Shown: positions 31,300-32,628 of the stretch, one piece after another
Numbering within the stretch: the stretch's first letter is position 1
How the letters are laid out: each line of letters begins with the position of its first letter
Source of the DNA: Prorocentrum cordatum
Lineage: Eukaryota > Sar > Dinophyceae > Prorocentrales > Prorocentraceae
Length of the DNA stretch: 64,000 nucleotides
Assembly (NCBI GenBank): GCA_963575745.1
Contig: CAUYUJ010010502.1
Span: 68,883-132,882 of the forward strand
Direction: 5' to 3'
Notes under the pieces: model-generated
The model's input: only the letters and a program-made list of their open reading frames with translations
Databases searched by the model: none
What the model was told of the DNA's origin: nothing
Translations under genes and position numbers: made by a program

Positions 31300-31485
31300 G
31301 CCTTGTTCGACCGCAACATCACGAACAGCCGCGCCATGATGTGCACCGCGTTGATCCTCAGAATCGGGAACAACCAGGGGATGGGTGACGTCGGCTACGA
31401 CAAGAGCTACGACATCTACGTCCCGCCGCAGCACCTGCGCCTGTTCGACGGGCCTGGCCTGGTGGTCGACACCATCATCAGACCG
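31300..31485 (+). other. Mosaic segment 1: form II RuBisCO large subunit
   Basis: [44 protein letters not shown] and VVDTIIRP align with the form II RuBisCO segment [36 protein letters not shown]. Relative to the family about 18 residues between LFDGP and the GTIIKPK strand are missing. The active-site Lys-Pro-Lys reads Arg-Pro at the junction. Confidence 0.85.
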
Positions 31486-32097
31486 AACATCTCCCGCGAG
31501 ACGCTGCAGCAGAACAAGATCTTGCGAGCGATCAAGAAGAATCTCGTCCAGAAGTGCCTCGAGATGTTTGCGGAGATCGCCGAGAAGAAGGACGACTACA
31601 AGAAGTTCCACGAGCAGTTCGGCAAGCGCCTCAAGCTTGGCGTGCACGAAGATTCCACCAACCGCACCAAAGTCGCGGAGCTTATGCGCTACCACACCTC
31701 GAAATCTGGAGATGAGATGATCAGCCTGAAGGAGTATGTGGACCGCATGAAGGAGGGGCAGAATGACATGAACTGCAGCACGGGGGAGAGCATCGCAGCG
31801 GTGTCGTCCTCGCCTTTCCTGGAAACGCTGCGCAAGAAGGGTCTTGAGGTCCTCTACATGACCGATCCCATCGATGAGTACTCCGTGCAGCAGCTGAAGG
31901 AGTTCGACGGCAAGAAGCTCAAGTCGACGACCAAGGAAGGTTTGGACCTCGAGGACGAGGACGAGAAGCAGAAGTTGGAGGAGCTGAAGGCGGAGTTCGA
32001 GCCGCTGACGAAGCTGATGAAGGAGGTGCTGGGCGACAAGGTGGAGAAGGTGGTTGTCAGTTCGCGCATGGCGGACTCGCCCTGCGTGTTGACCACG
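31486..32097 (+). other. Mosaic segment 2: HSP90 middle domain
   Basis: About 204 codons from [20 protein letters not shown] to [15 protein letters not shown], including [20 protein letters not shown] and [20 protein letters not shown]. Nearly every position fits cytosolic HSP90. The usually invariant YYITGES reads NCSTGES. No stop or indel. Confidence 0.95.
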
Positions 32098-32196
32098 CGC
32101 GGCCTGCAGCCGAAGCCGTTCGTCGAGGCCTGCTATGGCTTCTGGCAGGACGGCGACTTCAGAAAGAACGACGAGCCCCTGAGCAACGTTCTGCCA
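32098..32196 (+). other. Mosaic segment 3: form II RuBisCO, continuation
   Basis: [20 protein letters not shown] and FRKNDEP match the family's LGLRPKPF.EAC..FW.GGDFIKNDEP, which in RuBisCO follows directly after TIIKPK. After NDEP a small deletion moves the homology to the next frame, where the bases read FCQMN as in the family's GNQVFCQMN. Confidence 0.85.
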
Positions 32197-32260
32197 GATG
32201 AACATGAAAGCGCAGGCCCTCCGGCATTACTGCATGCACTCCTACATGGCGTCCAACAAG
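32196..32260 (+). other. Mosaic segment 4: HSP90, continuation
   Basis: In the frame one base over, [19 protein letters not shown] matches HSP90's MKAQALRDNSMTSYMVSKK, located about 12 residues after the VLTT where segment 2 stopped. The join to RuBisCO lies at ATGAAC/ATGAAA, a possible microhomology. Confidence 0.75.
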
Positions 32261-32277
32261 ATTCTCATCTTTGGCTT

Positions 32278-32628
32278 CCAGAGGGGGCGGGCAAGCTCAT
32301 GGGCATGGCCTTCCGCGTGCCCACCATCGACGTGTCGGTCGTGGACCTCGCCTGTGAGCTGGAGAAGGCGACGACCTACGAGGAGATCTGCGCCGAAATC
32401 AAGAGGCGCTCCGAGGGCGACATGAAGGGATACGTGGGCTACTGCGACGAAGCTCTCGTGTCCACCGGCTTCGAGACGTGCCCCATCTCCAGCACCTTCG
32501 GTTCCAAGGCGGGCATCATGCTGGACCCCACGTTCGTGAAGCTCGTGGCATGGTACGACAACGAGTGGGGCTATTCGTGCCGTGTCGTTGACCCGATCAA
32601 GCACATGGCCAAGGTCGACGGGGCGTAA
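32278..32628 (+). other. Mosaic segment 5: GAPDH C-terminal region
   Basis: [20 protein letters not shown] through [39 protein letters not shown], and [17 protein letters not shown] to the natural C-terminus and stop. It corresponds to about the last 115 residues of cytosolic-type GAPDH. The NAD domain and catalytic Cys are absent. Confidence 0.92.

Follow-up and report, generated by a model that had tools for sequence, protein, structure and literature searches.

The RuBisCO–HSP90–GAPDH mosaic at positions 31241–33053 of the window (the whole 64,000-nucleotide stretch of Prorocentrum cordatum DNA analysed here) is very probably a 5′-truncated copy of a non-autonomous, LINE-mobilised retroposon family that has grown by nested captures of host-gene fragments. 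A preliminary description, made from the letters of the window, had noted five interleaved gene segments, and had ascribed them to repeated template switching by a reverse transcriptase among abundant mRNAs, or to serial retroposition.

To identify the pieces of the mosaic, their DNA was aligned to the native HSP90 (L041), GAPDH (L042) and RuBisCO form II (L050) genes of this genome. These alignments bore out the five same-strand segments at 31298–32684 in the order originally given, RuBisCO–HSP90–RuBisCO–HSP90–GAPDH, and added a sixth piece, HSP90 again (H3), which lies 3′ of GAPDH at 32685–32781 and was absent from the preliminary description. All parts of the element are on the forward strand. 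Downstream of a CAT-rich 5′ flank (31208–31240), which represents the target, the copy starts with a remnant of the 5′ module (31241–31297), being truncated at this point; it is without the first ≈110 nt of the element, including a 57-nt LINE-like head and the ATG of the open frame. The first RuBisCO piece, R1 (31298–31484), corresponds to L050 positions 482–638 and 693–716, with 87.3% identity over 157 nt and then, past a 54-nt internal deletion, 96% over 24 nt. It is followed by a younger HSP90 piece inserted in RuBisCO, H1 (31485–32096; L041 322–933, 92.6% over 612 nt), beyond which the RuBisCO sequence continues as R2 (32097–32203; L050 722–837, 82.8% over 116 columns). The middle part of a putative old HSP90 backbone (32204–32278, by alignment to L041) consists of H2, aligned at 32204–32261 to L041 971–1028 with 82.8% identity over 58 nt, and, by eye, the first nucleotides of H3. 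Inserted in this old HSP90 is the GAPDH piece (32279–32684; 90.2% over 407 nt), comprised of the C-terminal coding part, with its own stop at 32626–32628, and about 56 nt of the 3′ UTR. The C-terminal part of the old HSP90, H3 (32685–32781), is 84.6% identical to the native gene over 52 nt and 89.5% over 38 nt. The 3′ module begins with a part (32782–32943) that is not matched by native HSP90 3′ parts, and continues into a 3′ tail (32944–33048), which is similar to the 3′ end of LINE-like elements in its first ≈74 nt and in its last 19 nt. An A-rich tail, acaaa (33049–33053), precedes the CAT-rich 3′ flank of the target (33054–33209). We considered the possibility that the 3′ module was an HSP90 3′ UTR and rejected it: in a comparison with L043, similarity to eight native HSP90 genes stops ≈10–20 nt past the stop codon.

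An open frame runs across the mosaic on the forward strand from 31066 to the GAPDH stop at 32628. The mosaic protein matched HSP90 (E = 6.3e-81) and GAPDH (E = 5.5e-38) among PDB sequences, and the Pfam families HSP90 (3.5e-90) and Gp_dh_C (4.8e-27). The Pfam matches to RuBisCO_large (1.6e-4) and its N-domain (0.087) were both under the curated cut-off, so that it is the DNA alignment to L050, at 82.8–87.3% in the main blocks, which identifies these segments as RuBisCO. Neighbouring frames of the window gave weak Pfam matches only. The conserved register described earlier nearly holds in RuBisCO, in which the native sequence reads TIIKP-KL-GLQPKPF, so that the two pieces are two residues apart and not adjacent as had been thought; the gap between VLTT and MKAQALR is 12 residues in native HSP90, in agreement with the earlier estimate.

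The genome (4.128 Gb in 21,875 contigs) was searched for further mosaics, as the preliminary description had proposed, and about 30 distinct copies were found. A protein search gave at least 117 matches, with 94 of 743 candidates scored, and nearly the same order of pieces was present on five other contigs at 92–100% protein identity (two of them partial, and one a duplicate of the window locus). HSP90-like DNA was found at 40 genome places in a separate DNA search. In the DNA search with the 5′ module, all 36 candidates were scored; 25 places belonged to the mosaic family and 11 matched the first ≈45 nt only. The corresponding search with the 3′ module (31 of 31 candidates scored) gave 36 matches at 31 places. 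The two module searches together defined 32 places, or 30 distinct ones once the pairs C10502/C18380 (99% alike over 6.9 kb) and C7174/C13882 were merged. The analysis covered 29 of these 30 loci, the other being a partial 3′ module match of 101 nt (C2006); L047 and L049 contain N gaps. Full-length copies extend from (A)AGGCCGCCGCGAGC to GTCGAGGA and a short A-rich tail, measure about 1.35–2.7 kb, and carry the 5′ head sequence AGGCCGCC. Neither the repeat nature of the mosaic nor the ends of the element were visible from the letters of the window alone.

The copies fall into subtypes, which were assigned for loci other than L047, L048 and the short L066–L068, and which were made by deletions and duplications. 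Type A (the window, L023, L024, L026, L027, L029 and L046) has the arrangement RuBisCO–HSP90–RuBisCO–HSP90–GAPDH–HSP90, with some pieces lost through further deletions in L046. Type B (L033–L040 and L049) has an additional RuBisCO–HSP90 unit, which is present twice in L033. Type C (L030–L032, L044 and L045) has the HSP90 piece inside RuBisCO and is without GAPDH; upstream of R1, old HSP90 is kept in L030–L032 and L044, while L045 is truncated within H1. L025 has GAPDH together with a remaining part of the upstream old HSP90. Type C together with L043 is the most diverse group, with mean differences of 5.0–6.0%, compared to 2.0–3.2% in type A with L025, and in type B.

The order of the insertions can be read from the HSP90 layers and from copies that lack the later pieces. 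On L041 coordinates, type C and L043 have HSP90 sequence corresponding to 442–624 and 726–772 upstream of R1; a weak third upstream block, L041 928–968 (41 nt), had an E-value of 2.9e-4 in L043 and a non-significant 0.25 in L030. H3 in L043 covers L041 1145–1325. Because these blocks are collinear on L041, and the main ones are 79–89% identical to the native gene, we read the upstream block, H2 and H3 as what was probably a single old HSP90 backbone. L043 and L058 contain R1–R2 and old HSP90, and neither H1 nor GAPDH. One contig, C14283, was predicted to be free of H1 from the protein matches, and the DNA agreed, with the old HSP90 lying upstream; the missing GAPDH there was not predicted. L058 is a second locus of this kind. 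The H1-empty site of L043 and L058, ATCATCAAACC followed directly by CACGCACGG, is gapless relative to native RuBisCO, and the same unbroken R1–R2 join occurs in nine type B loci. The GAPDH-empty site in L043, between GGCTTC and CTCCTATACGG, is likewise gapless relative to native HSP90. The GAPDH-site region is deleted in type C, which is therefore uninformative about a past GAPDH piece, so that L043 and L058 are the informative loci. RuBisCO entered the old HSP90 between GAGCGCA and ATGAAGG with a loss of 0–2 nt, as judged against native HSP90; no element without RuBisCO was found among the copies, and we hence infer this first capture by comparison with native HSP90. The pieces of the window copy differ in their identity to the native genes in keeping with the nesting order: 83–90% for old HSP90, 83–87% for RuBisCO (96% in the 24-nt stretch), 90% for GAPDH and 92.6% for the inner HSP90. 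When all copies are taken, the ranges overlap (73–90% for old HSP90, including short weak blocks, and 88–93% for H1).

The two HSP90 layers, together with L043 and L058, which are without the later inserts, argue that the interleaving arose by stepwise nesting rather than by switching back and forth between templates. The same evidence gives no support to repeated template switching, with its register kept, as the cause of the interleaving, which had been the earlier proposal. On that view, a single run of reverse transcription would have alternated between RuBisCO, HSP90 and GAPDH mRNAs, resuming each where it had been left. Such a run could account for every piece being in the sense orientation and for R1/R2 and H1/H2 being nearly adjacent in the native proteins; the end of H1 and the start of H2 are separated by only 38 nt in HSP90, a proximity estimated at about 4% if the end of H1 were random. 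We nevertheless consider it very unlikely, given the copies with R1–R2 and old HSP90 but neither H1 nor GAPDH (L043 and L058) and the uninterrupted R1–R2 join of the nine type B loci. Furthermore, H1 of the window is nearer to the native gene than are H2 and H3, and sequence resembling the HSP90 stretch that seems to have been skipped between H1 and H2, the weak 41-nt block, lies upstream of R1 in type C and L043. The apparent register in the window arises because type A is without the upstream old HSP90. A single run of LINE template switching was also rejected, as there is no full-length 5′ RNA copy fused end to end to a 5′-truncated 3′ part, and nested internal fragments and intermediates are found instead. 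A single fusion had been judged a difficult explanation in the preliminary description, and we drop it, given L043 and L058.

In the simplest state observed, a 5′ and a 3′ module enclose an old, degenerate HSP90 that is interrupted by a RuBisCO piece; other loci also have the younger HSP90 within RuBisCO, GAPDH within the old HSP90, or both. We suggest that the old HSP90 copy first took up the RuBisCO piece, and that the younger HSP90 was later inserted into RuBisCO, and GAPDH into the old HSP90. Deletion of the upstream old HSP90 in the type to which the window belongs would then have left the order RuBisCO–HSP90–RuBisCO–HSP90–GAPDH–HSP90. A LINE presumably supplies the enzymes in trans; the host pieces would be passengers, and the ends of the element would be what movement requires.

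Retroposition, which had been invoked earlier, is supported for the element as a whole by target duplications, 5′ truncation, an A-rich tail and ends that resemble those of a LINE-like element. Most examined copies sit between CAT-type repeats. The 3′ end is fixed among copies while the 5′ truncation varies, with 8 of 29 loci truncated at differing points (the window, L024, L027, L045, L048, L066, L067 and L068; L049, with its N gap, was left uncalled). Target duplications of 11–14 bp that are not pure CAT were found in seven loci (L026, L037, L043, L045, L046, L048 and L067, those in L048 and L067 being judged by eye). In L067, just the last ≈178 nt of the element are kept, between two copies of TTAGCATCGTCAT. 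The duplications in L033 and L039 are imperfect, and no clear duplication was seen in the window copy, L027, L040 or L068; at the remaining loci, the CAT repeats obscure any that might exist. When 5′ and 3′ flanks were re-paired at random for 17 loci, the observed sum of scores was reached in none of 20,000 pairings. Scores of at least 12 were obtained by 11 of the 17 true pairs and by 47 of 272 false pairs, since one CAT repeat aligns with another. The 17 loci were drawn from a set of 21, leaving out L023, L024, L025 and L035, which have CAT repeats on both sides; L044, L022 and L028 had been dropped before this set was made. Most copies have a short A-run past the 3′ end, which is interrupted (acaaa) in some and nearly absent in L031.

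Gene capture by a DNA transposon (a Pack-type element, Helitron or introner) could also place pieces of several host genes within one mobile element. However, no inverted repeat of 12 nt or more was present in the one copy examined (L043:959–2320), and the variable 5′ truncation, fixed 3′ end, A-run and target duplications varying in length between 11 and 14 bp all speak against this explanation, which we regard as exceedingly improbable. A retrogene of the DinoSL type was rejected as well: neither the spliced-leader relic GGCTCAAG, with up to one mismatch, nor CTCAAG occurred in the 60 nt upstream of any of the 17 full-length copies. The 5-nt sequence TCAAG occurs in four copies, where it is indistinguishable from the CAT target. 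An assembly or library artefact might be suspected in a repeat-rich draft genome with N gaps, as in L047 and L049, but the same junctions are found on numerous contigs, where the flanks differ and several copies have target duplications of their own, and the probability of a chimera is close to nil.

Among the 11 places that match only the head of the element, five were examined, and four of these (L059, L060, L062 and L063) form one family, in which L059 and L060 are alignable over 2.5 kb. L061 has the same head and a different body. The mosaic head is 91% identical to those of the four family members over 57–58 nt. The 3′ ends were reached for two of the four (L064 and L065), giving lengths near 6 kb by coordinates. 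L064 and L065 end in CCTAACGTCGAGGAAAAA followed by CAT-type sequence, and the mosaic in CCTGATGTCGAGGA and an A-rich tail. The ≈74 nt at the start of the mosaic tail (32944–33016 in the window) gave a local alignment score of 37 with each of L064 and L065, while the best of 500 shuffles each, in which blocks of two bases were moved, scored 29 and 30.5, respectively. The last 19 nt of the mosaic are identical to L065 at 16 of 19 positions. The 3′ motif GTCCTRAYGTCGAGGAAAA occurs at 110 places in the genome, compared to none for the reversed control, and mosaic copies make up 10 among the 100 of these places that were listed. Two other motif places were compared with the mosaic tail: L071 scored 38.5 against 37 for the best of 300 shuffles of the same two-base kind, and L070 scored 33 against 32, both barely above. 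L071 ends in CAT-type repeats and has a frame that by eye resembles one in L064; L070 has little in common with the mosaic apart from the last 19 nt. The head was rejected as a member of a known RNA family or ribozyme, its matches being far under the gathering scores.

L064 and L065 contain motifs that, by eye, look like those of a reverse transcriptase. In a PDB search with this region, the R2 retrotransposon appeared with a non-significant E-value of 0.38, level with an unrelated nanobody, and a two-row profile gave R2 at E = 0.13, also non-significant. The frame of this region had no match in Pfam or NCBIfam, and no endonuclease was recognised in the LINE-like element. From these sequence features, the ≈6 kb partner is likely, though not proven, to be a LINE. 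This partner is a candidate for the LINE that would drive the mosaic, its 3′ end being similar, though not identical, to that of the mosaic.

We also considered a functional family of chimeric genes, with the mosaic protein under selection. In several copies, the long frame starting at the ATG of the 5′ module stays open across the mosaic, and the four subtype deletions located on the 5′ side preserve it. There is also a slight deficit of stop codons, with none against 1.3 expected on internal branches, and two against 5.1 expected on terminal branches. However, the codon test, done on the R1 and H1 stretch (228 codons in 20 rows, excluding the duplicate rows L022 and L028, the native HSP90 row, matches shorter than 500 nt and loci found later), gave no sign of purifying selection: internal branches had 35 N and 10 S, or 1.13 times the neutral ratio, and terminal branches 145 N and 32 S, or 1.47 times. 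Several copies have early stops or frameshifts, and the frame traverses the last HSP90 pieces outside their native frame. We conclude that no selected protein is indicated and that the substitutions look neutral, making a functional gene family highly unlikely.

The three captures share several properties. All are sense, internal fragments, with 0–2 nt of the target lost and 0–5 nt of microhomology, and neither a target duplication nor an A-tail was seen at any of the three, the RuBisCO join being judged against native HSP90. The native genes are unbroken over the compared parts, so that the captured pieces need not have come from RNA. There is about an even chance that capture occurred when a reverse transcriptase left the element RNA it was copying for an abundant host mRNA, and then returned near the same point. 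Such switching would account for the bias towards sense inserts and for their coming from abundant sources. The return to about the same nucleotide is unexplained by simple template switching; exact resumption would be explained by patch repair, in which breaks in genomic copies were patched at the DNA level with cDNA or DNA, and the patched copies spread by LINE retroposition. The small target losses, short microhomologies and internal fragments, free of duplications and A-tails, fit such patching. Against it stand the common sense orientation of the inserts, which has a chance probability of 1 in 8, and the high rate of patching that three events in one small lineage demand. We slightly favour template switching, and regard DNA-level patching as a real, if lesser, possibility. 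The 38-nt spacing between H1 and H2 could be chance, or a sign of homology-guided switching: for the inner HSP90, the HSP90 sequence in the nascent cDNA may have steered the enzyme onto HSP90 mRNA, and this would account for the short distance from the end of H1 to the start of H2. More tentatively, the body of a LINE satellite might be rewritten repeatedly during reverse transcription by precise patches from abundant host mRNAs, the enzyme leaving, copying and returning.

Examples are already known of composite LINE satellites, of template-switch chimeras and of patch insertions. In trypanosomatids, ingi pairs with RIME. The non-autonomous LINE partners of trypanosomatids are not known to carry nested host-gene fragments. 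SVA is a non-autonomous composite that is mobilised by a LINE, has internal expansions and subfamilies, and is built of repeat parts. The mosaic is likewise a probable LINE-mobilised composite with expansions and subfamilies, but is made of coding pieces of three host genes, nested in one another. The maize element Bs1 holds parts of three cellular genes, and resembles the mosaic in combining parts of several host genes in one retroelement; Bs1 is, however, an LTR element and not a LINE satellite. The trypanosomatid pair L1Tc/NARTc is described as a short element and a longer non-LTR retrotransposon with a common 77-nt 5′ end, Pr77. The mosaic similarly has a 5′ head that is 91% identical to that of a longer LINE-like element; it differs in carrying nested host-gene pieces, and any comparable role of its 57-nt head is putative. 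Pr77 is described as yielding unspliced transcripts, which would fit the missing spliced-leader relic in the mosaic copies.

Chimeric retrogenes made by LINE template switching, MINE and WEIRD-MGL, are described from Magnaporthe (PMC2104539), where same-orientation transcripts are fused in a LINE-made unit with short direct repeats, of 14 bp in the tripartite one. As presented in that account, the unit consists of a full-length RNA copy at the 5′ side, fused at its end to the truncated copy of a LINE, whereas in the mosaic, internal fragments were added one step at a time, and the resulting composite spread as a family. The captures resemble the class 2 templated sequence insertions described in human DNA, in which a patch from a distant locus lacks the marks of LINE insertion (PMC5110952), in having neither target duplication nor A-tail; they differ in that a single mobile lineage has three patches, nested within each other. 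The dinoflagellate retrogenes that bear relics of the spliced leader (PMC12014239) are also retroposed host sequences; compared to the retrogenes as described there, the mosaic has no leader relic in 17 of 17 full-length copies, save for a possible 5-nt remnant, combines several genes and has LINE-like ends. No dinoflagellate LINE satellite of nested coding pieces from three host genes was found among the open-licence PMC papers searched.

The surviving intermediates show how fragments of three host genes came to nest in a LINE satellite with many copies. Some of the extensive retroposition described in dinoflagellates is thereby tied to a recognisable family with its own ends, a target preference and about 30 copies, and a family with defined ends makes capture and spread testable. 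For annotation, the mosaic is a warning that what looks like an interleaved fusion gene in a genome of this kind can turn out to be a mobile element. If patching from host mRNAs during reverse transcription is true, it would constitute a continuing, in-sense exon-shuffling machine.

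Sequences resembling the spliced leader were found in the window more often than chance would predict, with four matches to CCATTTTGGCTCAAG observed against 0.14 expected. Near-complete copies are located at 1–23 and 12437–12457 (exact and one-mismatch matches, extended by eye), and two-mismatch matches at 9559 and 15771. These matches are probably retroposed transcripts of other genes. The window also contains a frame at 22931–24196 with a weak match to the Pfam reverse transcriptase RVT_2 (E = 1.6e-4, under the curated cut-off), a tandem array at 42650–43333 in which a 73-bp unit recurs about nine times, and degenerate TTAGGG-like repeats at 57701–58012, which are telomere-like by sequence and contig-internal.

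In the whole-genome assembly (G000), native RuBisCO II forms tandem units with a spacing of 1518 bp on contigs C17274, C437, C9115 and others, and C9115 displays many partial RuBisCO matches. The type-B mosaic element at locus L033 (C17333) contains a tandem duplication of the RuBisCO-HSP90 unit, and its units are about 96–97% identical to the window sequence.

Among the genomic motif places listed, the exact 3' end motif of the mosaic, in its GATGTC variant, is present on C614, C17861 and C18319, none of which appears among the places listed for the mosaic 3' module. Locus L070, part of C614, has little in common with the mosaic besides the last ≈19 nt, and no CAT repeats follow its motif. 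These three places may represent further satellites. Locus L061 (C15589) shares only the 5' head region with the mosaic, while its body differs, and is possibly another satellite of the same LINE-like element as the mosaic.
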